Shown: one piece after another, positions 39,901 to 61,300 of the stretch
How the letters are laid out: each line of letters starts with the position of its first letter
Position numbering within the stretch: the stretch's first letter is position 1
Assembly (NCBI GenBank): GCA_949130485.1
Contig: OX422191.1
Coordinates: 5,519,754 to 5,583,753 of the forward strand
Direction of reading: 5' to 3'
Length of the DNA stretch: 64,000 nucleotides
From: Agelas oroides
Lineage: Eukaryota; Porifera; Demospongiae; Agelasida; Agelasidae
Notes under the pieces: generated by a model
Database searches by the model: none
What the model saw: the letters and a program-made list of their open reading frames with translations, nothing else
What the model was told of the DNA's origin: nothing
Translations under genes and position numbers: made by a program

Positions 39901-40520
39901 GTTAAAATCGGCGTTATCAGGTCTTTTCCGCACACAAACAGGCTTGCACTAACCTCACAGGGCCTCCACAGTCGTGAAAACTGCTTTCTCGATCTTCTCT
40001 GCCACTTAAAGCAGCCTGTACGTGCTTCACAGCACCTCCTCTGAGGTTAAAACGGCGTTATCAGGCCTTTCCCGCACATAAACAAGCTTGCACCAAACTC
40101 ACAGGGCTTCTACAACGGTAAAAACTGCTTTCTCGATCTTCTCTGCCACTTAAACAGGCCTGTACGTGCTACACAGTACCATATCGGAGGTTAAATCGGC
40201 GTTATCATGTCTTTTCCGCACATAAACAGGCTTGCATGAGACTCACAGAACCTCCACTGTCGTAAAAACTGCTTTCTCGACCGTCCCTGGCACTTAAACA
40301 GGCCTACACGTGCTTCAAAACATCTCCTCGTAGGTTAAAACGGCGTTATCATGTCTTTCTCGCACATAAACAGGCATGCACGAGCATCACAGGACTTCAA
40401 CAGTGTTGAAAACTGCTTTCTCGATCGTCTATGGCACTTAAACAGGCCTACACGTGCTTCAAAGCATCTCCTCGGAGGTTTAAACGGCGTTATCAGGTCT
40501 TTCTCGCACATAAACAGGCA

Positions 40521-40720
40521 CACTGATAAAAATGGGGTGTCTTGTCCACACCTTTAAGGGTGTTCTAACTGCCACTAACCCCAAGCTCCCCTTGGGGTGT
40601 ATTCAAACACCCATGCGTGTGTAAATGTTGCACCCATCCAGAGGTACTGTCACACCCATATAGCGCTACTATTACACCCCTACATGGGTAATGCCACACC
40701 CACAAAATGGTACTGCGTGC
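40521..40720. repeat. Left terminus with subterminal ACACCC repeats
   Basis: Starts CACTGATAAAAATGGGG at 40521. Within about 170 bp there are seven exact ACACCC motifs, three read as GGGTGT and four as ACACCC, plus near matches (cacacctt, gcaccc). A 7-bp hairpin CCCCAAG/CTTGGGG lies at 40579-40597. In CACTA elements such clustered motifs are binding sites for the element's own protein; that role here is inferred. The rest, to the SAM gene stop at 40868, is AT-rich, with no canonical AATAAA seen for the minus-strand gene. Confidence 0.65.
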
Positions 40721-40867
40721 ATTCTTTTGACAATCTTTAACCTATATCAAATGTTGATATAAAATGCTTACACTGAACACTGAAAAGACAAAATATAAAA
40801 ATCTTAAACAATTACTAACAAAGCCTATCTATATAAATTATACAAGATCGAAGGTTGAGTACTACAA

Positions 40868-43800
40868 CTAGCTTAGTTTACTTAAATTACTAACAAGTTT
40901 AGAAGTTGTTGCAGGAACCACTTGATTGTCCTGAAGCTTAAAAACAGTATGTTGAAAAAAAAGCATCATTGCACAGACTGTCTTTGGATAGGCTATGTCG
41001 AATACATAGTAGGTTGCCATCAGATCAATGACGGCATCCCTCACAGTCTTGGATTCAGTTAGGACGGACTGCTCACAGCAAACATAGAACTGTGCGTTTT
41101 CGTCTCCTGCTGTTCCAGTCCATACAAGAAATGGAGCCGACTGCTCTATCTTGCTGACTTCTGTGTCCAGGTCTATGTCACATGTCTAAACAAAGGTAAA
41201 GAGTAATAATGATAAGCGCCACTTACTATGTAAATCACATGTATGCAATCTATGTAGCATCCTTGTTCCCAGACTCCCTTACCGAGCTTATCGTCACTTG
41301 CAGTACAGAAAAGAAGGAACATGGGTACTGCATAACACACCCAACATGAATTTAATGGACCAGGCTCTCTGGGAAGCTGGGTGGAGGCTTGTGAAAAAGG
41401 CTATCCATGCAGCCAACAAGTTGTTCCATCCGTAGACATCGTCTCTTGTAGCTGCACTATTAAATTTTACCTCCACTCAATATAACCACAAGCAAGCAGT
41501 ATATATTCACTCAAGGGAAAAAAGCAGCTTGGCGTGAATTTCAACTTAAAAAATGGGCTAATTCTTTGTTGCCATCATTATGGGTAGCCTCATTTCCAGG
41601 CTTTTGCTGCCTCCAGTATTGGATCGCTCCCAATATGCAATTATAGAGGGGGGAGGGGAGTGCTGATATGCAGTGATGTCATGTAATGTCAGGTGGACAG
41701 AAAGTAGATGCACATGCAGAGGGCAGTACCTGACAAAAAACCTTGAGGCCTTTCATTGTACTGTCCATCCAAGGACTGGAGGTCGGAACATAAGTATAAT
41801 CGGGACTGATCAACACGAATTACATGCCTGTCTACCTGATACAACATGACATCACCATACATGACAAGATCTCCTGGCCTTTCCCAGTTACACTGGAAGC
41901 AATTAAATACTGGAGGGGACGAAGGCCTGGAAACAAGGCTATCATGACCGTGAGTGAGTTGTTATAACTCATACCTCAAAATGCTTGATGAAAACTGCTT
42001 TCTTGCCAAGCCCTCGTGGGTACAATAGCTTTGAGAGCAGATCCAGACAGGTGGCATCACAGTGGTCTGTGTTGGAAGACATACACACAATTAATAATCT
42101 CACATAACTGAACATAAGTGTAGTTTGAATGTTCCCAGGCCTCTGTCCAGCTTACAGTGTGGAAAAGTTGCCTTGTTCCAATGCCACATGGGAAGAGGAA
42201 AGTGGCCTGGTATCCATCCACTGCTTGTGCATGTGCAACTAACTAGAAAGCATCTTTATATGCATCAAATCGTATCCAACTGCTGGTAATTCCAACTTTA
42301 CTGACAATTTTCAAACATACATAGATTCCCAGGTTTTCTGGGAATGGTCACATGTGCACAAGCAGTAGATAACAGGCTACTTTCCTCCTCCCACGTGGGC
42401 CTTGGAATGAGGCTAGGTGAGTGATGTCATGCACTATTGTTGTCAAGCAAAAATTATGGGTGGCAAGTTCTCCCAATGTAATGAAATTAGACTTATGGAG
42501 AATAGTAAGCTTTCCAGTCACACAACACAGCCATAATACTAGGGCCAGTAAGCACCCCAAGTTAGCTAGGTCTAGTTCAAAGACTGTTAAAACTTCGATT
42601 TCTCAACATAGAAAGCAAATGTGTTAAAGCACTCACCATCTGGACAAGCAACACCGTCTTTACTCTCTAAGTCACCCAGCAGCTTCTTTAGGACAGGTCG
42701 AGTGGCCGACTCCAACTTCGAAAACTGGATCAGCTTGTCCCTCCACTCAGGCCATGAGTCCATCAGTGAGCCAGCCGTTGTGTCAAGCGATGCCACAGAC
42801 CTGAATTCTCGGCGCAACTGTAATGATGGAAGATTAATTGTATGTTGTTAGCACACACGATAACCCTCTGTAAACGATGCTCAACATTCCAATTACAGCA
42901 CACCAAATCACAAATTGCAAGGTGTATGTGGTTAATTTTAAAATCTGATTATTAGACCTTTAGCCATTCAGGTGTATAAAAAATCTGTCAGGTGATAGTC
43001 ACATAATGCACATTAAAAGCATTGAGTAATTGAGTATGATGTAAGGACAAAAGCGACAATACTCTTTACTGTGTCATCTTTGTGCAACACGTACCCTACC
43101 TGGACTGTTCTAACTCCCACCCATTAATGCATAAACACAGATATGGAAGAGTACTTACCATTCTGCTTGTTTCTAAGCAGGGAAATCTCCCAATGACTTC
43201 TGAAACAAGAGGTCTCTCATTTTCAATCCATCTGCGTCTTCCTCTCCTTGTCCTCTCCATGAGCTGCTTTAGAAGTGCCTGGTTCCTACCCCGTTTACGC
43301 CCCTTCCTGTATTCTGTCTGCAACTCTTTAACTGCTGCCTCATATTCCTCATCGTTGAGCTCATCGTTGAGCTCTTCCCTGTCATCACCTATGGAGGTCC
43401 GCATCCGCTTAGATGGTGGCTCGAGATTTTTGCTGGCAGCAGTAGTGCGACGAACGATGGGGTCTCCGTTTTCGTCAGTAGGATGATCCCTTCTGAAATT
43501 CTTGAACGCGTTTCTTAGAGACATCCTCCAAGAGCCCTGCAGACAACATAAATACCCCATGAATATTAGTACCCAAGGTGGTTCCGACCGCTGCGCAATA
43601 ATTAGGTGGGTGGAGCTTCAGCAATGAGTGAACGACTGCCAACTGTATCTCTGGTTTTTGAAAAGCTACCAACATCGGACAAAGATTAGCTGACAAAGAG
43701 AGGCTCCAGGCCTAAAATATATTACAGCTTGAGCAGTTTCGGTTTTCGTGAATAAAATTTTCGTGATCTCGAGGTTAATCACGAAATTCACGCAAATATT

Positions 43801-44800
43801 GTGCCACGAAAATTTGGAGCGATACGGTACTTGCTCAGTTGATATTGCTATGAGAGGTACAGAGAACACGGAAAAAGACTATCACTTGGGACACTTACAA
43901 AGCCGTTTGTTCCAATTGGGTCACGAAGGTTGGGATACTTGGTCACAAGCTTCTGTGAAACAGCGATGTACTGCTCAGACACCGGGTAGAGTGTATGCAT
44001 CGAGATAAGGGTACGTAACATCTGCACAATCTCACGCCTTGCTTTCGACGACACCACACCTGTGTCGATAGCCCGCTGAACACTCCCAGAGAAGCTGTCA
44101 CGTTCCGGGATCTTGAATGATTGAAGCCAGTCAGACAGTTGACTGCCTGGTGTGCCTGATGTTGTCAGTACATTGCAGTCCTGAGGGAGTACAAAGATTA
44201 CATAATCATTTCTGTGCAGTCCATATATTACCACACTCCCCACTAAAGTATAAATGAACGCACTTATTGTTGAAGGACTAAACTATGAAACATGGTGTCA
44301 TTCTTAGGTTAAAAATACCTTTGCAGTCAGTGGTGACTTGTTATTCTGCCTTTGACTGCAGGTTTGTCCCTCTTTGTTTGTTCCACAGTCACTTGTAGCC
44401 TACAGAAGCAAACACAAGCGTCTTCACACGTAGCATGGTATCAAACACTCTTGGTGCATGAACTTTAAATATAAGTCTCACAAATCCACAAACAAGTAGA
44501 AGACTGTACCTCTTTCGCTTCCACGAGAAGTTTACGGACGTTCACTCGGTCTCCAATCACCGGCACCAGATCCTTCAGGTCATCTTCGCTGAGCCCTAGA
44601 AAGGTTGCACCAGATATCCTGTTGCGACTGAAACTGGTCACGACGTCCGAATGAAATCCCTTCTCCTCCAGTAGATAATCGCAGAACTCGTCGATTCCCA
44701 TCTCCTCAATTCGTGCCATGGTTCGTCGCAGATCGCAGTTACGCAGCTCCTTCTCGTTTGTCCTGACAAAAGATTTCACACTTATAAGGGTACCGGGCAT
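40868..44800 (-). CDS. SAM-domain protein, SAMD3-like, seven exons
   Basis: Read on the minus strand. Exons (high to low): 44800-44510, 44399-44319, 44180-43899, 43536-43159, 42817-42637, 42066-41975, 41185-40868. All borders are GT-AG and phases agree, giving 540 aa ending in TAG. Residues about 33-97 form a sterile alpha motif domain (MGIDEFCDYLLEE ... VNVRKLLVEAKE). Then follow the blocks I know from SAMD3-like proteins: GSWRMSLRNAFKNFRRD, a basic linker, RRRWIENERPLVSEVIGRFP, WPEWRDKLIQF, and a C-terminal domain with QFYVCCEQSVL and TYYVFDIAYP. A TTTTGTCAG acceptor upstream could make Met-28 (44719) the real start. A small extra exon inside the last intron (41186-41974) cannot be excluded, but direct joining fits the family. 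SAM domains mediate protein self-association; the biochemical role is unknown. It is divergent from the transposase and lies inside the element. Confidence 0.82.
43748..43815. repeat. Small imperfect inverted repeat in SAM gene intron
   Basis: In the intron 43537-43898, ttcgtgaa and ttttcgtgat face atcacgaaattcacg and cacgaaaattt across a short centre containing ctcgag. It looks like a remnant of a small palindromic repeat. Family unknown. Confidence 0.35.
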
Positions 44801-44820
44801 AATTTATCAAAGTTGGCACC

Positions 44821-45075
44821 TGGGTAAGCGCACGTGAGCAGTGACGTTCGTATTACGTAATCGAGTTGGTGCGAGCTAGCTGATCTGACAGCTGTGCCTG
44901 TGGCCGTCGTGCGAAGAATCGTGATCAACAACCCTATTGTGAACGGTGTCGGTGAGTTAAGTGGTAGTTGGGGGGAGGGGGGAGGGGGGAGAGATACGTC
45001 ATTTTATTAGATCAGTCAATCAGTTCCTTGCATGTGCAACCAGCCTGAGTTGTAACACTTGAAATTATACACGCG
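44821..45075. promoter_or_regulatory. Divergent promoter region of SAM and transposase genes
   Basis: This interval lies between the SAM gene start and the plus-strand leader. It holds a CACGTG E-box (44831-44836), a CRE-like TGACGT (44842-44847) followed five bases later by the palindrome TTACGTAA (44853-44860, a bZIP-type site), a possible splice donor tcg|gtgagt near 44950, and a G-rich tract. A shared bidirectional promoter is inferred from the geometry. No transcript data are available. Confidence 0.45.
44969..44990 (+). other. G-rich tract, possible G-quadruplex
   Basis: Three runs of six G separated by single A residues just inside the plus-strand leader. Long runs can supply four G-tracts, so an intramolecular quadruplex in DNA or leader RNA is possible. 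It could equally be a simple low-complexity tract. Confidence 0.4.
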
Positions 45076-45468
45076 ATGCCCAGAGAAGCAGCAATGGAAT
45101 TGTCCGTGACTGGAAGAAGGATCAAGCACAGAAGGCGAAAAGTAGTAGTTGAGAAAATTCATAGGACTAATTCAGTGAAGGACTGTGCATACACAGTCTC
45201 CCGTGACTCTGGAGGAAAGCCTTTGCTCTTGTTGAGTGCTGAAGTCTGCAGTAATGTGTCCAGTAGTACATACAATGTGAATTTTAGGCTTACACAAACA
45301 ACAAAGCTTAAACTATTGCACACTGGCTCTGCTCCTTATCCATACCATATTAAATGGACAATGAGAAAGCTGCGCTACCAACTGAAAGTATCCAAACTCT
45401 CGCTTATTTCTGGCTTGATCAGCTTAAATGAGTTGTTTGATGTGAAGCACATTCAACAGTTAGCTTGA
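45076..45468 (+). CDS. 130-codon leader ORF of unknown function
   Basis: An open frame with a basic start (RRIKHRRRKVVVEK) and no domain I recognise. Its TGA lies one base before a good donor (gag|gtatgt at 45470). That donor pairs with the ttttcctttag acceptor at 45547 that opens the transposase coding exon, so this ORF lies in the 5' leader of the transposase transcript and is not in frame with it. It may be an upstream ORF, a small second protein of the element, or chance. Confidence 0.25.
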   Translation: MPREAAMELSVTGRRIKHRRRKVVVEKIHRTNSVKDCAYTVSRDSGGKPLLLLSAEVCSNVSSSTYNVNFRLTQTTKLKLLHTGSAPYPYHIKWTMRKLRYQLKVSKLSLISGLISLNELFDVKHIQQLA

Positions 45469-45551
45469 GGTATGTTTTATGTGGCTACGATGTACATACT
45501 TTCCACTTGTATTTGATTCTGTGAACGTTAACTGATTTTTCCTTTAGGTCA

Positions 45552-46748
45552 ATGGCATCCTTGAATGCACAGTTGGTGTGCCCTCTGTGCCCCCATGAAA
45601 GGACAGCTCATCTTCATTTTGATTTGACTGGCTTTCTAAAGCATTTAAAGCTGTTTCATGCCCACCAGGCAGGCTTTAGAGTAACTTGCGGCATTAGTGG
45701 CTGCCAGAGAAGCTTTAGTAACTTTCTGACATTTCAGGGTCATGTGTCAGCTATGCATCGGTACCAGCAAGACCCTAACAATGTTGCCCCTGGTCTAGAC
45801 ACATGTCCAGGGGAAGACACAATGGACGATCAAAGTAGTGAGAGTGACTGCGGTCTTGGTGTTGGTGAAGAGGAAGAAGCTTGTAGCCAAGAGGTGCTAC
45901 AAAAATCGACCGCTTTGTTTCTGCTCGGACTCAAGGAGAAGCATAAGCTTACTCAAGCAGCTGTGCAAAGCGTAGTCGAGGGAGTTACAAGCCTGCTTCA
46001 GCAACGATTAGATATTCTGCATACACAAGTGTGTAGTAAGCTTACTGAAGCTGGTGTTACGTTGTTGCCAGGGCTAGATGGTCTCTTCAGTGAAGATGGA
46101 GCAAATGCACGTCCATTTTTGGGCCTTGAAACACAACATCAACAGCTGAAGTACTACAAGACCCACTTCAACTTCATCGTAAGTGCTTGCACCATAGGTG
46201 TGGGTACATATTGTATTTGCAAGACATACGTGCATCTGATTTATGTTATGACCACTACACAGTTCATGTACCCGGTATACTTATTTTTGTCTATAAGGAA
46301 CCGGTTCGTGTTCTACTTGGAGAACGGCACGTGTGGAAGGGTCGAGGTGCAAAGCGAAGGTGTGCCTCCAAAGAAGATCATGTGATCTACATTCCAGTGT
46401 TGGAAACACTTCAGGGCCTCTTGAAGAATGAAGCCGTTCTGTCAGAGGTATATAAATGAGTTGACAAATCATTGTGATGTATATTCCACTGCGATTAACA
46501 CCAATATAGGTCAATACAGTATCTAATCATTACAGCTGAACAAACCATAGCAACAAAGCTTTTTGTTATACAGGTGGAAAGTGGTCACAAGACTAGTTCT
46601 GGTCTCATGGAAGACTTCTGTGATGGGAAAGCTTTTGCTGCACATCCTCTTTTTTCCCTCCATTCAAAAGCGCTTCAAGTGCTCTTCTACTATGATGAGC
46701 TGGAGGTTGTTAATCCTCTGGGGTCCAAAACAAAGCTCCACAAATTGG
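45552..46748 (+). CDS. C2H2/Tnp2-like transposase, 5' exons
   Basis: First coding part of the host element's transposase. Exons: 45552-46178, 46298-46447, 46574-46748 (phases 0, 0, 1). The ATG lies just after acceptor ttttcctttag. Residues 10-36 and 46-69 are two C2H2 zinc fingers (C-x2-C-x17-H-x4-H and C-x4-C-x12-H-x4-H), likely for DNA binding. An acidic stretch follows, then a helical block (TALFLLGLKEKHKLTQAAVQ). Exon 3 adds EPVRVLLGERHVWK, and exon 4 has FYYDELEVVNPLGSKTKLHK with an acidic residue at about 300, a candidate first catalytic Asp. The frame continues in the exon at 50844 across an intron that holds the nested transposon. I recall this domain order from multicopy proteins annotated as uncharacterized in animals. 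The catalytic assignment is inference. Confidence 0.8.
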
Positions 46749-46786
46749 GTATGTTTAGTAGTGGGGGCTCATGAACACTGAATGTA

Positions 46787-47310
46787 CAGTGGAACCAGCA
46801 AAGAGAGCAAAAAGTGCTTTTTTTGACTTTACAGGCTCATATTTTTAAAAGTGAACATGACACAAGAAATACAAACACATTTTCATGATCTCCAGGAAAA
46901 ACTGAGTAAGACGGGTAGGTGCAAGGGCATCATGTGACAGTCATGTGACAGTACATGGCAGGGAAACAACCCTAGGTCAAAAAGTGACTTTTAGCATGGG
47001 ATTTGTCAAGCATTGCAATTTAAGGTCCCAAACTACTGCCATTGGAATCTCACCCAGGTAAGGTCCCTTGAACTGCACAAAGTATTCTTAACTGTCAGCA
47101 CTTTCAGAGAGCAGGGCCAAAGTAGCCATTTTTGAGCCCTCCAAGCGTTTAGCATGGTATGCGTGCAAACATACGAGTTAAGGTCTGAACTTTCAGTTAT
47201 CGAACACAAAGTCTTTATATTTTCAGCAACTAGTGACAGGGAACACTTCTCCGCGGCCAAATCCGAGAAACGCAGCCTTGTGAGCGCGAACGAGACTTTT
47301 CGACGGCCAT
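46787..47310 (+). repeat. Left terminal inverted repeat, 524 bp
   Basis: Pairs with 50262-50785. I noticed about four mismatches over the whole length. It contains a doubled catgtgacagt motif near 46930. Its inner edge carries GCCATCTTG (47306-47314), a YY1-like motif; the partner arm has AAAATGGC at the same place. A 75-codon open frame occurs in both arms but has no gene-like features. Confidence 0.95.
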
Positions 47311-47322
47311 CTTGCTGTTTTG

Positions 47323-47373
47323 TGACGTAGGGCTTGTCACGCGGAATAATACTAAACGTGACGAGGTCACGTG
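47323..47373 (+). promoter_or_regulatory. HIRAN gene promoter motifs
   Basis: Between the left inverted repeat and the ATG at 47388 lie TGACGTAG (47323-47330, CRE-like) and a perfect inverted repeat ACGTGAC-gag-GTCACGT (47356-47372) that overlaps a CACGTG E-box (47368-47373). These are motif matches only. Confidence 0.4.
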
Positions 47374-47387
47374 TATCGTTATTAACA

Positions 47388-48094
47388 ATGGCGACTAACC
47401 GTGTGCTGTTGGCGTTCTTTACCTGTCACTGCCGGGGGGTAAAGTTTTATGACTTGGCAGAGGTAGGCGCTAGGCAGGGGAGCAAAGTCAGATTCGTCAG
47501 GGACCCTGGCAATCCCTATGACACCAACTGTGTCGAAGTGTGGCTGTGTGAGGATGGTAGGAGGCAGAAGTTGGAGCATGTGGCTAAGGAAGCAGCAGAG
47601 TGGCTTTCTCCGATGCTTCTGGGCCCCTTTGACATCTCAGGGTAGGTTTTTTTGTGTTTTATTATAACTTGATAAAAATAATGCATGTGCATATACAGGA
47701 GGATCATGTCCCGTCCATACTCCATGCACCTGGAAGGGAATCGCTCTTGGAGATACCGGGTGATTGACATCCATATCTTCATTAGTGGTTCCTTCCTCCA
47801 CCAGGAGGGGGTCATTGAAGCATTGGAGGGAGGCAAATCTGTTCTGTCAGACCTGGAGGTATGTAAGGACTAACAAATGGTTCAGTACATCGCTGATACT
47901 GTTGATCTATTTCTGCCTCACAGTTTGGAGATGACTTAAAGACTGACGAACGGTTGACCTTAGACGGTGGACGTACAACCACGACTCACACAAACATTGA
48001 CAATGGACGTACATGTACAAGCACGACCCCCAAGAAGATTGCCAAACATTTTGACATACCTGACATCTCCATTGACGAACTCTTTGCTTGTTGA
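47388..48094 (+). CDS. HIRAN-domain protein carried by the nested transposon
   Basis: Three exons: 47388-47641, 47699-47858, 47924-48094. Introns are only 57 and 65 nt with GT-AG borders, and phases agree, giving 194 aa. The start has a good context (aacaATGg). Residues about 10-82 form a HIRAN domain: CHCRGVKFYDL, then VRFVRDPGNPYDTNCVEVW, then a KLEHVAKEAAEWLSPML helix that matches the end of the fold. In HLTF and Rad5 relatives this domain binds DNA, in HLTF specifically 3' single-stranded ends. Here it stands without helicase or nuclease domains; the second half (GGKSVLSDLE, a Thr-rich linker, KKIAKHFDIPDISIDELF) is unfamiliar. As it lies between the inverted repeats, convergent with the transposase, it is probably an accessory protein of the element or a cargo gene. 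No canonical polyadenylation signal follows; two histone-like hairpins do. Confidence 0.8.
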
Positions 48095-48121
48095 CGTGGA
48101 CTTACCTGGACATCCTTGACC

Positions 48122-48137
48122 GGCTCTTCTAAGAGCC
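48122..48137 (+). terminator. Histone-type 3' stem-loop candidate 1
   Basis: GGCTCTTCTAAGAGCC: a 6-bp stem GGCTCT/AGAGCC with a 4-nt loop TCTA, 28 nt after the HIRAN stop. This is the size, stem sequence and loop pattern (U at loop positions 1 and 3) of the replication-dependent histone mRNA stem-loop. It is followed by ACC, as is usual, and about 14 nt later by the purine-rich tcaaaagatag, a plausible histone downstream element. Function is inferred. Confidence 0.55.
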
Positions 48138-48186
48138 ACCGCATTTCAAAAGATAGCACCTTTCTGTTGACCTATATCCTTTCCCC

Positions 48187-48202
48187 GGCTCTCGTAAGAG
48201 CC
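48187..48202 (+). terminator. Histone-type 3' stem-loop candidate 2
   Basis: GGCTCTCGTAAGAGCC: the same six-base stem with loop CGTA, 93 nt after the HIRAN stop and 131 bp from the convergent transposase stop. The flanks fit the histone consensus less well than candidate 1. Being palindromic, both hairpins could act on either convergent transcript. Confidence 0.45.
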
Positions 48203-48332
48203 ATGTTTGTTGGCCAAGAGTTTATAACAGGAAGAGTGTGCAACTCCCATATGGTTTCTATACCCGCCATTTGGATAGGACAATCAGCATTGAATTACAC
48301 TGATTACAAAGATTACACTGATGTTACAAACG

Positions 48333-50177
48333 TTACCGATTACTACTGTTAATACGCCTATGTGACTTGTAAACTTTAACTCTCTCTTCTACAGCCTTTC
48401 CTATTAGTCCCTCCCTATATGCATGTTCGTAATCCCTACATGTTCGAAAGAACTTTTGTATCATTTCAGTACTTACACTATCAAGTCCTTTTGGTACAAT
48501 TTCTCTTAGACGTACGATCGACCCATTGGCATATGCACGTGTGTGCTTTTTTGAATGGCACCACACTCGTTCTATCGCACTAAGTTCGCAGTGGAATTTT
48601 GGATAAAACAGGCATAAGTGCCCTCGTCCTTCAATGTACTCTTCCAGAATTGTTTTTTGATTTTTAAAATCCGAATAAGTTTTCAATTTTTTTCTCATAT
48701 CTTCTGCTCTCATGTTCTTTGTATCCACTCCTCTTTCCTCCAGGATCATTTTCATTCCCTTCGCCTTGCCGTCTGCCCGTACCATTGTCTGCAGTGCACC
48801 ATTCCATGTAGTATCACGCATGATGGGCTGTTTGCCTCCCGGGCCAACGTTCATTTTATCAGCATTCAGGCTGTCATCTGATACTTTTCGATGAGAAGGC
48901 GCATTGTCAAACAGAAACAGTCCTTGTGCTTCAGGATGTACCCGTTCAAAAATGTTGACAGCTTTCTCCACCTGTTGCAGCAGCATGTCGTTATTAAAAT
49001 AACCCTCTCTGCTCGTTTCGAGCATGAGGCGTGCTTCATCTGAGCCATCTCTCAGAAATCCTATTACTTCATCCACAAAATCAGACACCATTATTGATGA
49101 CCCAAGAGACTTTTGCTTCAGAACATTGGTTTGATCATCTCCCCAAAAGAAAGATTGATCACAGTTCGAATAGTACGTGCTCTCGTCATGCACAACTCGA
49201 ATTATTGGTCTATCTCCTTCAGGAAGGGTAGGCGCTGGACCATCGCAAGTTATGGTCTTCTTGTCGAGTTCAGCCAATTTCGTCAAGAATTCATTTCTGT
49301 ACTCGACCACATCTTCGCGATTATGACCGTCAAAGTACACGCCCTTCTGATGGTGAAGCTGACTGAAGCCGAGGTTGTGGAGCCAGCTCCGAGCAGTTTC
49401 ATTGCAAACTTTTTGTCCATATGTTGTATGGATCCAGTCGGTAAACACTGATACTGTCAGATTGGGCTCCCCCTTCTTGCATGCACTGCTTCGGATAAAA
49501 GATCGAGCATTCAACTGAAACTCTTCATCAAAAAGGAGACTCTGGGGATGTGGTGAAGCGAGCCCTCTACCGGATGACAATTGAGCCTCAATATCCTCAT
49601 CAGTGACATTCTCTGGTGTTATCCTGATCATCTGAGAAAATGAGGTGAAGTACGAGTATGCCCATCCTCGAACGACTTGTGCAGAGTATCCCACAACGTC
49701 AGCAGCTAGTTGTGCTGCCTCTGTTATGTTGCATCCCCACTCTGTCATTGCAGTACCCATCACCGAAATGGCAAAAGCCTTCTGAATTTCCATTGATGTG
49801 TTTCTCTGCATGTATGAATTGATGCATCCCATCCCTGCCGAGAAAGTTGGTTTATCATCTTGAAAGATTCTGTACAGGGTACTAGGTGGCGAACCAGAGG
49901 CCTTTGAGAATCTGACTTCTGCAGCTGCTTTTGGGTTCCCCCTTGGAGAGTATTTTTTGCATTGAGCATGTATACTTTGCTCAGCTCTGCTCTTGCATGC
50001 TCTCTTTGTACACCTGTCATTGTCCAGCATGTTAGTAGAATCGCATAAAATAGCAGCGAGCCCACGCTTCCGTGTTTTCTTGGCTCCGGTAGCTCCACAG
50101 GAAGTGGTTTGGTTCTGAAAAGAACCGGTGGGTAGTGAAGAATTCGAAGTATTCATCGATAGCCAGCGCTCGAACAT
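48333..50177 (-). CDS. DDE transposase of the nested element, 614 aa
   Basis: An intronless frame of 614 codons from ATG at 50177 to TAA at 48333. The N-terminal 100 residues are basic and Cys-containing. Helix-turn-helix-like blocks follow (ITEAAQLAADVVGYSAQVV at 151-169; a second at about 241-271 with VCNETARSWLHNLGF). The DDE core is VVHDESTYYSN (Asp-331), FLFDNAPSH (Asp-424) and FYPKFHCELSAIERVW (Glu-536). IERVW matches the third block of Tc1/mariner-type DDE_3 transposases, but 111 residues separate Asp-424 from Glu-536, against 30-40 in classic Tc1/mariner. I recall the same blocks (GxSIMVSDF, GYFN, QGLFLFDNAPSH, HCELxxIE) in large multicopy fungal and animal DDE endonuclease proteins. 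Catalysis of cut-and-paste transposition at TA sites is inferred. The frame is intact, with all three acidic residues present. Confidence 0.92.
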   Translation of the reverse strand: MFERWLSMNTSNSSLPTGSFQNQTTSCGATGAKKTRKRGLAAILCDSTNMLDNDRCTKRACKSRAEQSIHAQCKKYSPRGNPKAAAEVRFSKASGSPPSTLYRIFQDDKPTFSAGMGCINSYMQRNTSMEIQKAFAISVMGTAMTEWGCNITEAAQLAADVVGYSAQVVRGWAYSYFTSFSQMIRITPENVTDEDIEAQLSSGRGLASPHPQSLLFDEEFQLNARSFIRSSACKKGEPNLTVSVFTDWIHTTYGQKVCNETARSWLHNLGFSQLHHQKGVYFDGHNREDVVEYRNEFLTKLAELDKKTITCDGPAPTLPEGDRPIIRVVHDESTYYSNCDQSFFWGDDQTNVLKQKSLGSSIMVSDFVDEVIGFLRDGSDEARLMLETSREGYFNNDMLLQQVEKAVNIFERVHPEAQGLFLFDNAPSHRKVSDDSLNADKMNVGPGGKQPIMRDTTWNGALQTMVRADGKAKGMKMILEERGVDTKNMRAEDMRKKLKTYSDFKNQKTILEEYIEGRGHLCLFYPKFHCELSAIERVWCHSKKHTRAYANGSIVRLREIVPKGLDSVSTEMIQKFFRTCRDYEHAYREGLIGKAVEERVKVYKSHRRINSSNR

Positions 50178-50190
50178 GAAAGATCTAGCA

Positions 50191-50216
50191 TTACGTAATC
50201 GTATGTCGTGACGTCA
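50191..50216 (-). promoter_or_regulatory. Transposase promoter motifs
   Basis: TTACGTAA (50191-50198) and a full CRE palindrome TGACGTCA (50209-50216) lie 14-39 bp upstream of the transposase ATG, between it and the right inverted repeat. The 12-mer attacgtaatcg is shared with the host element's divergent promoter at about 44852. These are motif matches only. Confidence 0.4.
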
Positions 50217-50261
50217 CAATCGCGATTATCTTAAGTACAGTGGTAACGCAGTAGCGCTAAA

Positions 50262-50785
50262 ATGGCCGTCGAAAAGTCGCGTTCGCGCTCACAAGGCTGC
50301 GTTTCTCGGATTTGGCCGCGGAGAAGTGTTCCCTGTCACTAGTTCCTGAAAATATAAAGACTTTGTGTTCGATAACTGAAAGTTCAGACCTTAACTCGTA
50401 TGTTTGCACGCATACCATGCTAAACGCTTGGAGGGCTCAAAAATGGCTACTTTGGCCCTGCTCTCTGAAAGTGCTGACAGTTAAGAATACTTTGTGCAGT
50501 TCAAGGGACCTTACCTGGGTGAGATTCCAATGGCAGTAGTTTGGGACCTTAAATTGCAATGCTTGACAAATCCCATGCTAAAAGTCACTTTTTGACCTAG
50601 GGTTGTTTCCCCGCCATGTACTGTCACATGACTGTCACATGATGCCCTTGCACCTACCCGTCTTACTCAGTTTTTCCTGGAGATCATGAAAATGTGTTTG
50701 TATTTCTTGTGTCATGTTCACTTTTAAAAATATGAGCCTGTAAAGCCAAAAAAAGCACTTTTTGCTCTCTTTGCTGGTTCCACTG
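50262..50785 (-). repeat. Right terminal inverted repeat, 524 bp
   Basis: Inverse copy of 46787-47310, ending GGTTCCACTG before the TA duplicate. It holds the presumed start region of the transposase transcript; the ATG is 84 bp inside it. Confidence 0.95.
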
Positions 50786-50843
50786 TAGTTACGAGAAAGG
50801 AGTAGCAGCTCACATGCAGGATATGTTCTGTACTTACACGTAG

Positions 50844-52126
50844 GTATTTTCTACTTCACATTGGGGAACTTGCCACCTAAGTACCGGTCGAGGCTTTCAG
50901 CTATACACCTTGTAGCCATTGTGAAGACAACCGTCCTTTCCGTGTATGGCATGGACAGTGTCCTGAGACCATTTGTTGATGACATCAAGAAGCTGGTACG
51001 AGTATGCACATGAAGTATTTTACACATTTAAAATTCAAATGAGATTGAGTATTTTGACATTTACAGTTGATGTCATGTATATTATGCATCATCTGACCTG
51101 TGTACATTGTTCCAAACTTAGGAACACGGAGTTCGTTTTGTGGCCGAGGGAAGACCGAAAGTCTACCATGGCACACTTGGTATAGTGTCAGCTGACAATC
51201 TCGGCAGTCTTGCTCTTGGTGGTTTTAAGGAGAGCTGCAGTGCTAGTCGAATGTGCCGACATTGCTTGGCTACAAAAGAAACTGCCCGAACACAGGTTTG
51301 TAGTGAAGTTGATGGAAGGTGCATGTGCTATAATGTCTGAAAAATAACACATCCCAGATTAAGCCCCATTGTACACGTCCATGTGTGTTCACTGACAGCT
51401 GTGGTTTTTATTCTAGTTTCAGGAGGACAAGTTTGTGCTGAGAAATGAAGCAGCACATAAGCAGCACTGTGCACTACTTGAAGAAGACGATACTGGTGAA
51501 ATCTCCAAACTGTATGGAATCAACCGGGACTCAATCCTGAATGAGCTCTCCTACTTTCATGTATGCAATGGCTCTCTTGTGCCTGATGTTATGCATGACA
51601 TACTTGAGGGGGCTCTTCAGTACGAGGTGAAGCTGATGCTGCAGTTCATGGTCGATACAGAGAGATATTTCACCCTCGACGAGCTTAACACGCGGCTGGA
51701 ACACATGGAACTGGGCTACATGGAGTGCAAGGATCGACCAACTGCGATTACAGCAACAACCTTGCATTCCTCTGGAAACTCTCTCAAACAGAAAGGTATG
51801 ATGGCAAGATACATATTGACACATTGTGTTTTATATACATATTTTATGCCTTATTCAACTGTAGCTGCACAGATGTGGCTCCTTGGCCGGATTCTTCCGG
51901 TGCTGGTTGGGGATCATGTTCCTGATGATGATGAACGCTGGCACAACTTTCTGGTGTTGATGGAGATTGTGGACCATTTGTTCTGCCCCCAGGTCACAGA
52001 AGACCAAGCTGCTTATGTTGCCACTCTGATCAGCGACCACCACCAGGACTTCTGCGAACTCTATCCGGACCACAATGTCATTCCAAAAATGCACTTCATG
52101 GTGCATATGCCTCGGCTTATGATCCA
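50844..52126 (+). CDS. C2H2/Tnp2-like transposase, 3' exons, truncated
   Basis: Continuation of the transposase begun at 45552. Exons: 50844-50995, 51122-51295, 51417-51795, 51865-52126, all with GT-AG borders and matching phases. The deduced partial protein is 639 aa. Conserved blocks in order: VFYFTLGNLPPKYRS-like start (here IFYFTLGNLPPKYRS); SADNLGSLALGGF with a CRHC pair (about residues 391-416), like the SADN/ACPVC region of Tnp2; PDVMHDILEGALQYEV (about 482-497), like the DVMHIEKN block of plant CACTA Tnp2; and IPKMHFMVHMPR near the end. The last exon ends at a good donor (cca|gtaagt, two bases into a codon), but no further exon exists: minisatellite and then satellite follow. Without splicing, translation would stop at once with TAA. 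The gene is therefore 3'-truncated and probably inactive. Confidence 0.82.
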
Positions 52127-52157
52127 GTAAGTATAGTGTTATTCATCAGCTGGCTAG

Positions 52158-52358
52158 CTCATCAGCCTGATGATCCTTGTGTTACTCTATACAGTGCTCA
52201 TCAGCCTGACGATCCTTGTGTTACTGTATATAGTGCTTATCAGCCTGACGATCCTTGTGTTACTCTATATAGTGCTCATCAGCCTGACGATCCTTGTGTT
52301 ACTGCTCATCAGCCTGACAATCCTTGTGTTACTCTATACAGTGCTCATCAGCCTGACG
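52158..52358 (+). repeat. 39-bp minisatellite at the broken right end
   Basis: Unit ctcatcagcctgacgatcc followed by ttgtgttactctatacagtg. Copies start at 52158, 52197, 52236, 52275 (only 30 bp), 52305 and 52344 (15 bp, broken off). The last partial unit runs into satellite through a shared acga. No transposon terminus lies here. Confidence 0.9.
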
Positions 52359-55300
52359 AGCATCACAGGACTTCAACAGTGTTGAAAACTGCTTTCTCGA
52401 TCGTCTATGGCACTTAAAAAGGCCTACACGTGCTTCAAAGCATCTCCTCGGAGGTTAAAACGGCGTTATATGGTCTTTCTCGCACATAAACAGGCATGCA
52501 CGAGCATCACAGGACTTCAACAGTGTTGCAAACTGCTTTCTCGAACGTCTAGGGCACTTAAACAGGCCTATACGTGCTTCAAAGCATCTCCTCGGAGGTT
52601 AAAACGGCGTTATCAGGTCCTTCTCGCACATAAACAGGTATGCACGAGCATCACAGGACTTCAACAGAGGTAAAACTGCTTTCTTGATCGTCCATGGCTC
52701 TTAAACAGGCCTACACGTGCTTCATAGCACGCCTTCGGAGGTTAAAACGGCGTTATCAGCTCTTTTCCGCACATAAACAGGCTTGCACTAACCTCACAGG
52801 GCTTCCACAGTGGTGAAAACTGCTTGCTCGATCGTCCCTGGCACTTAAACCTACCTGCACGTTTCACAGTACCCCCACGGAAGTTAAAACGACGTTATCA
52901 GGTCTTTCTCGCACATAAACAGGCTTGCACGAGCATCACTGGGCTTCAACAGTGGTGAAAACTGCTTTCTCGATCGCATATGGGTCCTAAACAGGCCTAC
53001 ACGTGTTTCATAGCACGATCTCGGAGGTTAAAATCGGCGTTATCAGGTCTTTTCCGCACACAAACAGGCTTGCACTAACCTCACAGGGCCTCCACAGTCG
53101 TGAAAACTGCTTTCTCGATCTTCTCTGCCACTTAAAGCAGACTGTACGTGCTTCACAACACCTCCTCGGAGTTTGAAACGGCGTTATCATGTCTTTTCAG
53201 CACAAACAAGCTTGCACCAACCTCACAGGGCTTCCACAGAGGTAGAAACTGCTTTCTCGATCTTCTCTGCCACTTAAACAGGCCTGTACGTACTTCACAG
53301 TACCCCATTGGAGACTAAAACGGCGTTATCATGTCTTTTCCGCACATAAACAGGCTTACATGAGCCTCACAGGACTACCACAGTGGAGAAAACTGCTTTC
53401 TCGACCGTCCCTGGCACTTAAACAGGCCTACACGTGCTTCAAAGCATCTCCTCGGAGGATAAAACGAAGTTATCAGGTCATTCTCACACATAAACAGGCA
53501 TGCACGAGCATCACAGGACTTCAACAGTGGTGAAAACTGCTTTCTCGATCGTCTATGGCTCTTAAACAGGCCTACACGTGCTTCACAGCACCTACTCAAA
53601 CGATAAAACGGCGTTATCAGGTCTTTTTAGCACATAAACAAGCTTACACCAACCTCACAGGGCTTCCACAGAGGTAAAAGCTGCTTTATCGATCTTCTCT
53701 TCCACTTAAACAGGCCTGTATGTGCTTCACAGTACCCAATCGGGAGGTTAAATTCGGCGTTATCATGTCTTTCCGAACATAAACAGGCTTACATGAGCCT
53801 CACAGGACCTCCAGTGGTAAAAACTGCTTTCTCGACCGTCCCTGGCACTTAAACAGGCTTACACGTGCTTCATAGCATCTCCTCGGTGGTTAAAACGGCG
53901 TTATCTGGTCTTTCACGCACATTTGCAGGCATGCACGAGCATCACAGGACTTCAACAGTGGTGAAAACTTCTTTCGCGATCGTCTACGGCACTTAAACAG
54001 GCCTACACGTGCTTCATAGCACGCCCTCGGAGGTGAAAACGGCGTTATCAGGTCTTTTCAGCACATAAACAAGCTTACACCAACCTCACAGGGCATCCAC
54101 AGAGTTAAAAACTGCTCTCTCCATTTTCTGTGACACTTAAACAGGCCTGTACGTGCTTCAGAGTACCCCATCGGAGGTTAAAACGGCGTTATCATGACTT
54201 TCCGCACATAATCAGGCTTACATGAGCCTCACAGGACCTCCACAGTGGTAAAAACTGCTTCTCGACCGTCCCTGGCACTTAAACAGGCCTACACGTGCTT
54301 CATAGCACGCCCTCGGAGGTTAAAACGGCGTTATCAGGTCTTTTCCGCACATAAACAGACTTGCACCAACATCACAGGGGATCCACAACAGTGCAAACTG
54401 CTTTCTCGATCGTCCCTGTCACTTATATCAGGCGTCCATGTGCTTTACAGCACACCCTCCGAGGTTAAAACGGTGGTATCAGGCCTTTCCCGCACATAAA
54501 CAAGCTTGCACCAAACTCACAGGGCTTCCACAGCGGTAAAAACTGCTTTCTCGATCTTCTCTGACACTTAAACAGGCCTGTACGTGCTTCACAGAACCCC
54601 ATCGGAGGTTAAATCGGCGTTATCAGGTCTTTCTCGCACATAAACAGGCATGCACGTGCATCACAGGACTTCAACCGAGGTGAAAACTGCTTTCTCGATT
54701 GTCTATGGCTCTTAAACAGGCCTACACGTGCTTCATAGCACGCCTTCGGAGGTTAAAACGGCGTTATCAGCTCTTTTCCGCGCATAAACAGGCATACATG
54801 AGCCTCACAGGACTACCACAGTGGAGAAAACTGCTTTCTCGACCGTCCCTGGCACTTAAACAGGCCTACACGTGCTTCAAAGCATCTCCTCGGAGGATAA
54901 AACGAAGTTATCAGGTCATTCTCACACATAAACAGGCATGCACGAGCATCACAGGACTTCAACAGTGGTGAAAACTGCTTTCTCGATTGTTTATGGCTTT
55001 TAAACAGGCCTACACGTGCTTCACAGCACTTACTCAAACGATAAAACGGCGTTATCAGGTCTTTTTAGCACATAAACAAGCTTACACCAACCTCACAGGG
55101 CTTCCACAGAGGTAAAAGCTGCTTTCTCGATCTTCTCTCCCACTTAAACGGCCTGTATGTGCTTCACAGTACCCAATCGGGAGGTTAAATTCGTCGTTAT
55201 CATGCCTTTCCGCACATAAACAGGCTTACATGAGCCTCACAGGACCTCCACAGTGGTAAAAACTGCTTTCTCGACCGTCCCTGGCACTTAAACAGGCCTA

Positions 55301-58300
55301 CACGTGCTTCATAGCATCTCCTAGGAGGTTAAAACGGCGTTATCTGGTCTTTCTCGCACATTTGCAGGCATGCACGAGCATCACAGGACTTCAACAGTGG
55401 TGAAAACTTCTCTCTCGATCGTCTACGTCACTTAAACAGGCCTACACGTGCTTCATAGCACGCCCTCGGAGGTTAAAACGGCGTTATCAGGTCTTTTCAG
55501 CACATAAACAAGCTTGCACCAACCTCACAGGGCATCCACAGAGATAAAAACCGCTCTCTTGATTTTCTGTGACACTTAAACAGGCCTGTACGTGCTTCAG
55601 AGTACCCGATCGGAGGTTAAAACGGCGTTATCATGTCTTTCCGCACATAATTAGGCTTACATGAGCCTCACAGGACCTCCAAAGTGGTAAAAACTGCTTT
55701 CTCGACCGTCCCGGGCACTTAAACAGGCCTACATGTGCTTCATAGCACGCCCTCAGACGTTAAAACGGCATTATCAGGTCTTTTCCGCACATAAACAGAC
55801 TTGCACCAACATCACAGGGGATCCACAACAGTGCAAACTGCTTTCTCGATCGTCCCTGTCACTTAATCAGGCGTCCATGTGCTTCACAGCACACCCTCCG
55901 AGGTTAAAACGGTGGTATCAGGCCTTTCCCGCACATAAACAAGCTTGCACCAAACTCACAGGGCTTCCACAGCGGTAAAAACTGCTTTCTCGATCTTCTC
56001 TGACACTTAAACAGGCCTGTACGTGCTTCATAGCACCCCATCAGAGGTTAAATCGGCGTTATCAGGTCTTTAACGCACATAAACAGGCATGAACGAGCAT
56101 CACAGGACTTCAACAGAGGTGAAAACTGCTTTCTCGATCGTCTATGGCACTTAAACAGGCCTACACGTGCTTCATAGCATCTCCTTGGAGGTTAAAACGG
56201 CGTTATCTGGTCTTTCTCGCACATTTGCAGGCATGCACGAGCATCACAGGACTTCAACAGTGGTGAAAACTTCTTTCGCGATCGTCTACGGCACTTAAAC
56301 CTACCTGCACATGATTCACAGTACACCCACGGAAGTTAAAACGACGTTATCAGGTCTTTCTCGCACATAAACAGGCTTGCACGAGCATCACAGGGCTTCA
56401 ACAGTGGTGAAAACTGCTTTCTCGATCGCCTATGGGTCCTAAATAGGCCTACACGTGTTCCATAGCACGACCTCGGAGGTTAAAATCGGCGTTATCAGGT
56501 CTTTTCCGCACACAAACAGGCTTGCACTAACCTCACAGTGCCTCCACAGTCGTGAAAACTGCTTTCTCGATCTTCTCTGCCACATAAAGCAGACTGTACG
56601 TGCTTCACAGCACCTCCTCGGAGGTTAAAACGGCGTTATCATGTCTTTTCAACACATAAACAAGCTTGCAACAACCTCACAGGGCTTCCACAGAGGTAAA
56701 AACTGCTTGCTCGATCTTCCCTGCCACTTAAACAGGCCTGTACGTACTTCACAGTACACCATCGGAGATTAAAACGGCGTTATCATGTCTTTTCCGCACA
56801 TAAACAGGCTTACATGAGCCTCACAGGACTACCACAGTGGAGAAAACTGCTTTCTCGACCGTCCCTGGCACTTAAACAGGCCTACACGTGCTTCATAGCA
56901 TCTCCTAGGAGGTTAAAACGGCGTTATCTGGTCTTTCTCGCACATTTGCAGGCATGCACGAGCATCACAGGACTTCAACAGTGGTGAAAACTTCTTTCGC
57001 GATCGTCTACGGCACTTCAACAGGCCTACACGTGCTTCATAGCACTCCCTCGGAGGTTAAAACGGCGTTATCAGGTCTTTTCCGCACATAAACAGACTTG
57101 CAACAACATCACAGGGGATCCACAACAGTGCAAACTGCTTTCTCGATCGTCCCTGGCACTTAATCAGGCGTCCATGTGCTTCACAGCACACACTCCGAGG
57201 TTAAAACGGTGGTATCAGGCCTTTCCCGCGCATAAACAAGTTTGCACCAAACTCACAGGGCTTCCACAGCGGTAAAAACTGCTTTCTCGATTTTCTCTGA
57301 CACTTAAACAGGCCTGTACGTGCTTCACAGCACCCCATCAGAGGTTAAATCGGCGTTATCCGGTCTTTCTAGCACATAAACAGGCATTAACGAGCATCAC
57401 AGGTCTTCAACCGAGGTGAAAACTGCTTTCTCGATCGTCTATGGCACTTAAACAGGCCTACACGTGCTTCATAGCATCTCCTTGGAGGTTAAAACGGCGT
57501 TATCAGGTCTTTATCGCACATTTGCAGGCATGCACGAGCATCACAGGACTTCAACAGTGGTGAAAACTTCCTTCGCGATCGTCTACGGCACTTAAACAGG
57601 CCTACACGTGCTTCATAGCATCTCCTCGGAGGATAAAACGGCGTTATCTGGTCTTTCTCGCGCATATGCAGGCATGCACGAGCATCACAGGACTTCAACA
57701 GTGGTGAAAACTTCTTTCTCGATCGTCTACTGCTCTTAAACTGGCCTACACGTGCTTCATAGCACGCCCTCGGAGGTTAAAATGGCGTTATCAGGGCTTT
57801 TCAGCACATAAACAAGCTTGCACCAAACTCACAGGGCTTCCACAGAAGTAAAAACTGCTCTCTCGATTTTCTGTGACACTTAAACAGGCCTGTACGTGCT
57901 TCAGAGTACCCCATCGGAGATTAAAACGGCGTTATCATGTCTTTCCGCACATAATCAGGCTTACATGAGCCACACAGGACCTCCACAGTGGTAAAAACTG
58001 CTTTCTCGACCGTCCCTGGCACTTAAACAGGCCTACACGTGCTTCATAGCACGCCCTCGGAGGTTAAAACGGCGTTATCAGGTCTTTTCCGCACATAAAC
58101 AGACTTGCACCAACATCACAGGGCATCCATAACAGTGCAAACTGCTTTCTCGATCGTCCCTGGCACTTAATCAGGCGTCCATGTGCTTCACAGCACCCCC
58201 TCCGAGGTTAAAACGGTGGTATCAGGCTTTCCCCGCACATAAACAAGCTTGCACCAAACTCACAGGGCTTCCACAGCGGTCAAAACTGCTTTCTCGACCT

Positions 58301-61300
58301 TCTCTGCCACTTAAACAGGCTTGTACGTACTTCACAGTACCCCATCGGAGGTTAAAACGGCGTTATCATGTCTTTTCCGCACATAAACAGGCTTACATGA
58401 GCCTCACAGGAACACCACAGTGGAGAAAACTGCTTTCATAGCACGCCCTCGGAGGTTAAAACGGCGTTATCAGGTCTTTTCCGCACAGAAACAGACTTGC
58501 ACCAACATCACAGGGCATCCATAACAGTGCAAACTGCTTTCTCGATCGTCCCTGGCACTTAATCAGGCGTCCATGTGCTTCACAGCACCCCCTCCGAGGT
58601 TAAAACGGTGGTATCAGGCTTTTCCCGCACATAAACAAGCTTGCACCAAACTCACAGGGCTTCCAGAGCGGTCAAAACTTCTTTCTCGAACTTCTCTGCC
58701 ACTTAAACAGGCTTGTACGTACTTCACAGTACCCCATCGGAGGTTAAAACGGCGTTATCATGTCTTTTCCATAAGTAAACAGGCTTACATGAGCCTCACA
58801 GGACCACCACAGTGGAGAAAACTGCTTTCTCGACCGTCCCTGGCACTTAAACAAGCCCGTACGTGCTTCACAGCACCTCCTCGGTGGTTAAAACGGCGTT
58901 ATCATGTCTTTTCAGCACATAAACAAGCTTGCACCAACCTCACAGGGCTTCCACAGAGGTAAAAACTGCTTTCACGATCTTCTCTGCCACTTAAACAGGC
59001 CTGTACGTACTTCACAGTACCCCATCGGAGGTTAAAACGGCGTTATCATGTCTTTTCCGCACATAAACAGGCTTACATGAGCCTCACAGGACCACCACAG
59101 TGGAGAAAACTGCTTTCTCGACCGTCCCTGGCACTTAAACAGGCCTACACGTGCTTCAAAGCATGTCCTCGGAGGTTAAAACGGCGTTATCAGGTCATTC
59201 TCACACATAAACAGGCATGCACGAGCATCACAGGACTTCAACAGTGGTGAAAACTGCTTTCTCGATCGTCTATGGCTCTTAAACAGGACTACACGTGCTT
59301 CACAGCACCTACTCAAACGATAAAACGGCGTTATCAGGTCTTTTTAGCACATAAACAAGCTTACACCAACCTCACAGGGCTTCCACAGAGGTAAAAACTG
59401 CTTTCTCGATCTTCTCTTCCACTTAAACAGGCCTGTACGTGCTTCACAGTGCCCAATCGGATGTTCAAACGCCGTTATCATGTCTTTTCCGCACATAAAC
59501 AGGCTTACATGAGCCTCACAGGACTTCCACAGAGTTAAAAACTGCTTTCTCGACCGTCCCTGGCACTTAAACAGGCCTACACGTGCTTCATAGCACGCCC
59601 TCGGAGGTTAAAACGGCGTTATCAGGTCTTTTCCGCACATAAACAGACTTGCACCAACATCACAGGGCATCCACAACAGTGCAAACTGCTTTCTCGATCG
59701 TCCCTGGCACTTAATCAGGCGTCCATGTGCTTCACAGCACCCCCTCCGAGGTTAAAACGGTGGTATCAGGCCTTTCCCGCACATAAACAAGCTTGCACCA
59801 AACTCACAGGGATTCCACAGCGTTAAAAACTGCTTTCTCGATCTTCTCTGCTACTTAAACAGGTCTGTACGTGCTTCACAGTACCCCATCGGAGGTTAAA
59901 TCGTCGTTATCAGGTCTTTCTCGCACATAAACAGGCATGCACGAGCATCACAGGACTTCAACAGAGGTGAAAACTGCTTTCTCGATTGTCTATGGCTCTT
60001 AAACAGGCCTACACGTGGTTCATAGCACGCCTTCGGAGGTTAAAACGGCGTTATCAGCTCTTTTCCGCACATAAACAGGCTTGCACTAACCTCAAAGGGC
60101 TTCCACAGTGGTGAAAACTGCTTTCTCGAGTGTCCCTGGCGCTTGAACCTACCTGTACATGCTGCACAGTACCCCCTCGGAGGTTAAAACGGCGTTATCA
60201 AGTCTTTCTCGCACATAAACAGGCTTGCACGAGAATCACAGGGCTTCAACAGTGGTGAAAACTGCTTTCTCGATCGCCTATGGGTCCTAAAGAGGCCTAC
60301 ACGTGTTTCAAAGCACGACCTCGGAGGTTAAAATCGGCGTTATCAGGTCTTTTCCGCACACAAACAGGCTTGCACTAACCTCACAGGGCCTCCACAGTCG
60401 TGAAAACTGCTTTCTCGATCTTCTCTGCCACTTAAAGCAGCCTGTACGTGCTTCACAGCACCTCCTCGGAGGTTAAAACGGCGTTATCAGGCCATTCCCG
60501 CACATAAACAAGCTTGCACCAAACTCATAGGGCTTCCACAACGGTAAAAACTGCTTTCTCGATCTTCTCTGCCACTTAAACAGGCCTGTACGTGCTTCAC
60601 AGTACCATATCGGAGGTTAAATCGGCGTTATCATGTCTTTTCCGCACATAAACAGGCTTGCATGAGCCTCACAGGACCTCCACAGTGGTAAAAACTGCTT
60701 TCTCGACCGTCCATGGCACTTAAACAGGCCTACACGTGCTTCAAAACATCTCCTCGGAGGTTAAAACGGCGTTATCATGTCTTTCTCGCACATAAACAGG
60801 CACGCACGAGCATCACAGGATTTCAACAGTGTTGGAAACTGCTTTCTCGATCGTCTATGGCACTTAAACAGGCCTACACGTGCTTCAAAGCATCTCCTCG
60901 GAGGTTAAAACGGCGTTATCAGGTCTTTCTCGCACATAAACAGGTATGCACGAGCATCACAGGACTTCAACAGAGGTGAAAACTGCTTTCTCGATTGTCT
61001 ATGGCTCTAAAACAGTCCTACACGTGCTTCATAGCACGCCTTCGGAGGTTAAAACGGCGTTATCAGCTCTTTTCCGCGCATAAACAGGCTTGCACTAACC
61101 TCACAGGGCTTCCACAGTGGTGAAAACTGCTTGCTCGATCGTCCCTGGCACTTAAACCTACCTGCACATGCTTCACAGTACCCCCACGGAAGTTAAAACG
61201 ACGTTATCAGGTCTTTCTCGCACATAAACAGGCTTGCACGAGCATCACAGGGCTTCAACAGTGGTGAAAACTGCTTTCTCGATCGCCTATGGGTCCTAAA

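Follow-up and report, generated by a model that had tools for sequence, protein, structure and literature searches.

The window analysed here, a 64-kb stretch of the sponge Agelas oroides (the assembly comprises 141 contigs, 259 Mb in all), consists almost entirely of a 144-bp satellite (positions 1-40518 and 52356-63998) that is interrupted by a single inserted block carrying a SAM-domain gene and a C2H2 transposase gene. The sequence-only reading of this DNA had described a CACTG end, an intact seven-exon SAM gene and, back to back with it, a Tnp2-like transposase; this layout was confirmed, with the start at 40521 and the end of the last readable exon at 52126 both exact. The ACACCC repeats that it had noted at the left end are also real, with seven occurrences in the 300 bp from 40519 versus 0.47 expected, and none of 500 resampled sequences (first-order Markov) reaching seven. 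The left terminus, CACTGATAAAAATGGGGTG, is present at two sites of the genome, the second (C1:10450559) having an unrelated flank. The element is truncated at a 39-bp minisatellite and so lacks its right end, any right-hand duplication and the exon that would encode the catalytic glutamate; without the right end, the window copy alone cannot decide whether the SAM gene is a member of the element. Taken with its relatives elsewhere in the genome, the block is likely to be a right-truncated, two-gene cut-and-paste transposon of the CMC group, whose second gene, divergently placed, encodes an accessory protein that has a conserved core, joined in two of the three broad lineages read by a SAM domain, and that may bind the element ends.

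Genome searches with SAM exon 4 and transposase exon 6 of the window gave matches at no fewer than 18 and 49 places, respectively (lower bounds), many of them adjoining. Some of these belong to a sister family, family 2. Three family-2 copies read whole align over ~9.13 kb at 99.8-99.9% identity, have unalike flanks and contain SAM and transposase genes in divergent orientation between the ends CACTGTAAAAAGTGGGGTG and CACAGTTAAAAATTGGGTG. Pattern scans of the genome located 10 left ends; the right ends numbered 12 exact and 4 inexact, and the reversed control gave none. Nine pairs of ends delimit copies of 3.8-10.8 kb at different sites with unlike flanks. A perfect 2-bp duplication borders every one of the nine (TA in three, CA in four, TG and TT in one each); the 3-bp duplications predicted by the sequence-only reading were found in none. 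The last exon of the SAM gene is present in all nine copies (and at all ten left ends), SAM exon 4 in eight and transposase exon 6 in six. Six copies carry SAM and transposase exons, divergently arranged, and the remaining three keep SAM exons without a transposase exon-6 match. The sequence-only reading had named complete copies without the SAM gene as an outcome that would refute it; no located both-ended copy of family 2 lacks that gene entirely, the most reduced being one of 3.8 kb in which the last exon is all that is present of it. Three further right ends have no left end, two of them adjoining transposase pieces (C11:0.895M and C3:13.62M). Since both-ended copies at many sites hold the SAM gene, it travels with the element, and we regard the SAM/core gene as almost certainly resident there. 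One family-2 copy (C4:4.40M) sits in a repeat related to the 144-bp satellite of the window.

Linkage across the genome points in the same direction. Merging the matches gave 47 loci for the transposase and 76 for SAM/core (five SAM/core queries). A SAM/core locus lay within 5, 10 and 15 kb of 13, 24 and 27 of the 47 transposase loci, and the arrangement was divergent in 13, 24 and 26, respectively; random placement gave a mean of 0.40 and a maximum of 4 at 15 kb in 5000 trials. The other outcome that the sequence-only reading had called refuting, namely SAM genes never linked to such transposases, can therefore be rejected on the 24 loci paired within 10 kb, all divergent. Both this linkage and the both-ended related copies in the same genome support its proposal that a CACTA-like element has the SAM gene as its second gene.

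A separate lineage, family 3, was examined as a test case because initially no SAM match lay near its four identical-scoring transposase matches (C1:5.83M, C2:17.26M, C2:19.54M and C10:0.27M). Upstream of the transposase, and divergent from it, is a conserved core gene. Both ends could be placed in the C1 copy, which has a TG duplication. Its left end, CACTCTTAGAAATAAAGTGG, recurs in four more copies, spaced from the core as predicted and adjoining four other flanks; the C1 and C10 copies have the right end in common. The left end of the C10 copy was not found when looked for. The family-3 core itself was found at 12 places, and a transposase match lay no more than 10 kb from nine of these. 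In the position of the SAM domain lies an N-terminal segment (L052 2854-3531) that, by eye, possibly has a ubiquitin-like fold. In both family 2 and family 3, a 176-bp tandem array lies inward of the right end (L049 690-2438; L052 8645-10000; L055), and parts of the two units are 73-80% alike, in opposite orientation.

The core is also divergent from the transposase in an intron-poor lineage (C2:15.66M, C2:15.55M, C2:6.26M and C7:2.69M), where leave-one-out profiles recovered it with E 4.2e-7, and exon 4 of family 3 matches this lineage with E 3.5e-5. With two exons joined by hand at GT-AG sites, the SAM domain of the intron-poor lineage scored above the Pfam cut-offs (C2:15.66M: SAM_1 24.1, cut-off 23, and SAM_2 22.8, cut-off 20.5; C7: SAM_2 23.8), while C2:6.26M has a weak SAM-like exon (E 0.043). 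Before it was read, C2:15.66M had shown a last-exon match alone, 13.7 kb off. All of the loci chosen for having no near SAM match (two family-3 copies, C2:6.26M, C7:2.70M and C2:15.66M; a non-random choice) proved to hold core or SAM exons. As judged from the sequences of the lineages read, the helical core is the constant part of the second protein, and two of the three broad lineages have a SAM domain at its N-terminus. A gag-pol-like long terminal repeat retroelement (L081 2-4963) appears by eye to have inserted at the C7:2.70M element, on the side of the accessory gene.

The SAM exon of the window falls below the Pfam cut-offs (SAM_2 18.4, cut-off 20.5; SAM_1 18.6, cut-off 23), and its family-2 homolog passes for SAM_2 (22.6 versus 20.5). 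Among the matches listed for the window SAM protein, the one named relative comes from Dysidea (42% across 48% of the query); a profile search brought up at least 51 proteins, namely the Dysidea protein, one window frame and 49 short others. No protein named SAMD3 occurs among the matches listed by the sequence and profile searches. Between the window and family 2, exons 1, 3, 4, 5 and 7 of the SAM gene differ by 0.75-0.89 per synonymous site and 0.26-0.36 per nonsynonymous site; no ratio is reported because synonymous sites are saturated. These differences indicate that the protein is under purifying selection, the SAM exon included.

The transposase has at least 101 homologs listed at E <= 1e-3. 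The best named matches listed come from the sponge Dysidea avara, followed by soft coral, sea cucumber, fish, sea urchins and scallop, with metagenome proteins interspersed. In an alignment of seven sequences (window numbering), D300, D393, C413-x2-C416 and H629-x3-H633 are all invariant, and the catalytic E (RFEAKH), which truncation removed from the window, is present in family 2. Pfam Transposase_21 (Tnp2) scored 11.3 bits on the truncated window protein (cut-off 28.6) and 23.7 on the homolog P0003 (E 3e-5), and PF02992 is assigned in 3 of the 101 homologs listed. The CMC/CMCT group (EnSpm, Mirage, Chapaev, Transib and Plavaka) is characterized by C(2)C and H(3-4)H motifs between the second D and the E, by CA..TG ends in most members and by duplications of 2-5 bp (PMC12730594, as far as its text was available). 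The window transposase has C(2)C and H(3)H; CA..TG ends with 2-bp duplications are seen in family 2 (9/9) and in family 3 (1/1 both-ended copy), and the left end alone in the window. By these motifs, the window transposase belongs to the CMC (CACTA/EnSpm-like) group and is a DDE transposase with a C2H2 zinc finger.

Table 1. Features of the window and the both-ended copy of family 3 (window positions unless a contig is named).
Feature	Position	Strand	Remarks
Inserted block in the 144-bp satellite	40521..52359		right-truncated two-gene element with nested insertion; minisatellite at its end
CA dinucleotide adjoining the left end	40519..40520		may be the left half of a 2-bp target-site duplication whose right half is lost
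Left terminus CACTGATAAAAATGGGGTG	40521..40539	+	CACTG starts at genome position C9:5560274
Subterminal ACACCC/GGGTGT repeats	40521..40820
SAM-domain gene	40868..44800	-	seven GT-AG exons, one open frame, 540 amino acids
SAM-gene exon 1	44510..44800	-	SAM domain; below cut-off here, passes in the homologous family-2 exon
SAM-gene exon 2	44319..44399	-
SAM-gene exon 3	43899..44180	-	conserved core domain, first half
SAM-gene exon 4	43159..43536	-	conserved core domain, second half
SAM-gene exon 5	42637..42817	-
SAM-gene exon 6	41975..42066	-
SAM-gene exon 7	40868..41185	-	conserved C-terminal exon
Foldback repeat like a miniature inverted-repeat transposable element	41585..41941		~357 bp, inverted repeats; SAM-gene intron 6
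Interval between the divergent genes	44801..45551		751 bp
C2H2 + Tnp2/CMC-like transposase gene	45552..52126	+	seven readable exons, 639 amino acids; 3' part lost
Transposase exons	45552-46178, 46298-46447, 46574-46748, 50844-50995, 51122-51295, 51417-51795, 51865-52126	+
Nested DNA element	46787..50785		TA flanks, 529-bp inverted repeats (5 mismatches); transposase intron 3
39-bp minisatellite	52157..52359	+	truncated right side; satellite resumes after it
Family-3 C1 copy	C1:5824587-5838196		13.6 kb; CACTCTTAGAAATAAAGTGG at 5824587, inverse at 5838196; duplication TG

Several smaller features accompany the two genes (Table 1). The interval between them is presumably a shared promoter region, and a 139-amino-acid open frame without a Pfam match lies in it at 45049-45468. 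The foldback repeat contains an open frame that mimics an exon. The nested element carries a 626-amino-acid open reading frame (48333-50213, minus strand) with weak, sub-threshold matches to HTH_33 and DDE_3, and is probably a young IS630/Tc1-mariner-like element.

Outside sponges, two of the 101 transposase homologs listed are of particular interest. In P0092, from the springtail Orchesella dallaii, an N-terminal SAM domain (27.9 bits versus 23) is fused to the C2H2 and transposase parts; in P0099, from hake, a core follows the transposase in one model (leave-one-out E 2.4e-6). No other homolog in that list reached E 0.1 with the profiles used. The hake core may resemble the SAMD3-like genes of other animals, the label that the sequence-only reading had given to the SAM gene, and these two proteins give only a hint that the element explains why such genes are multicopy there. 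It is a speculative possibility that a broad animal branch of CMC transposons assembles its ends with a polymerising SAM accessory protein, and that multicopy SAMD3-like genes, perhaps SAMD3 itself, descend from it by repeated domestication.

How might the two proteins work together? The transposase would recognise and cut the CA..TG ends, and the accessory protein would bind the subterminal repeats (ACACCC or CACACC), presumably through its core. Polymerisation of the SAM domain would then bridge the two ends and allow the transposase to pair and cut them, much as TNPA serves TNPD in plants. TNPA binds the subterminal repeats of En/Spm. As expected of a TNPA-like accessory protein, the SAM/core protein is encoded between the element ends (in family 2). 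We judge an end-binding role of the SAM/core protein to be an even proposition.

Several observations weigh against reading the element as a two-gene SAM transposon. No SAM domain can be recognised in the family-3 accessory gene, whose N-terminus matches no Pfam family above cut-off; this suggests that the core is essential and the N-terminus exchangeable; moreover, the family-3 core was itself recognised weakly (leave-one-out profiles, E 0.011 and 0.038 per exon). Modelled by AlphaFold as a single sequence and on its own, the SAM exon of the window gave a poor result (predicted local distance difference test score, pLDDT, 46.6). The linkage count is inflated because two of the five SAM/core queries were taken from genes beside transposases. 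A fair count therefore uses nothing but the three queries from the window gene; it pairs 11 of the 47 loci within 10 kb, every one divergent and one of them the window itself. Nor are copies from one family independent, and the random control ignores their kinship. At 15 kb, 49 of the 76 SAM/core loci and 20 of the 47 transposase loci are unpaired (few of them read); the 20 include two with a divergent partner farther away (32 and 35 kb) and the family-2 right-end fragments at C11:0.895M and C3:13.62M. Some of the unpaired SAM/core loci may be host genes. The hake model places transposase and core on the same strand; either its arrangement differs from the divergent pair or the predicted model is chimeric. 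Finally, transposase residues 1-368 are missing in all three wholly read family-2 copies, and residues ~94-303 in the C19 copy, and the open SAM frames of family 2 are weak evidence because the copies are near-identical. Although internally deleted in the transposase, these copies (L049, L050, L051 and L058) are near-identical at distant sites; because their own transposases are deleted, they were probably moved by a transposase from elsewhere.

Other explanations for the SAM gene differ in how well they survive. It may reside in the element and act as a regulator or anti-silencing protein (e.g. a chromatin-acting SAM protein) instead of a structural factor, the main alternative, which we find possible if clearly the less likely. 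SAM domains are found in Polycomb proteins, and in the PDB the window protein matched nothing but Sfmbt, without significance (E 0.38). The N-terminal part is also different in family 3, and the TET/JBP genes of fungal EnSpm and other elements, which offer a comparison, are said to help escape methylation (PMC12730594, in part). However, the constant core, the divergent placement and the subterminal repeats fit an end-binding factor, without proof. Far less probable is the capture of a host SAM gene as cargo with no role in the life cycle of the element. The SAM/core loci that lie away from transposase matches (49 of 76) mean that host copies may exist, but the same divergent pairing recurs in lineages with transposases ~30-53% identical to that of the window, each lineage has its own core gene beside its own transposase, and the protein is constrained. 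That the pairing in the window is a chance juxtaposition, a nested insertion into satellite, would suit a truncated copy that contains a nested element, but is refuted for practical purposes by the nine duplication-bounded copies elsewhere, which contain the SAM gene or at least its final exon.

A second gene that is resident in the transposon can be compared with several known systems. To our knowledge, it is chiefly in plants (TNPA) and in Harbinger that cut-and-paste transposons have a known second protein. Harbinger/PIF is a two-gene cut-and-paste element with a transposase and a Myb-like protein, and thus resembles the present elements in its composition while belonging to another superfamily and using another accessory protein. 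Plant CACTA duplications are of 3 bp, and family 2 departs from plant-type CACTA/EnSpm in this respect (3 bp in 0/9, 2 bp in 9/9). Fungal EnSpm also has 3-bp duplications (PMC12730594, in part). In plant En/Spm, transposition needs both TNPA and TNPD, which come from one alternatively spliced transcription unit (PMC1636069, available in part). The present elements are like En/Spm in having two proteins in the element and a transposase of the same group (PMC1636069), and also in their subterminal repeats; unlike it, they have two divergent genes, a SAM and core protein, and a 2-bp duplication. SmTRC1 and the other animal TRC elements (Schistosoma, Aedes and Tribolium) are CACTA relatives with Transposase_21, 2-bp duplications and CCC termini, and their descriptions, in the available part of the source, include no SAM gene (PMC1636069). 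The elements described here share with them the animal CACTA kinship and the 2-bp duplications, and differ by their CAC termini and SAM gene. The TET/JBP-carrying fungal EnSpm elements likewise have a resident second gene in the same transposon group, there a dioxygenase (PMC12730594, in part).

The available text of that CMC/CMCT survey does not contain the word SAM (PMC12730594). In the open PubMed Central (PMC) literature on SAM or SAMD3 together with CACTA, EnSpm, transposase or transposon, no such element was found by titles and abstract starts, Repbase and Dfam lying outside this scope; a zebrafish PIWI-interacting RNA paper that has both EnSpm and a SAM domain describes none by its title and abstract start (PMC11760641). 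We regard the element as a variant within a known group, a CMC transposon whose second gene is of a new type. If this is true, a SAM-based second protein in animals would be a new way of building a transposition complex; uncharacterised SAM/core genes would become transposon genes, and SAMD3-like host genes would gain a testable origin. The analysis also shows several lineages of this transposon branch to be two-gene systems, not lone transposases.

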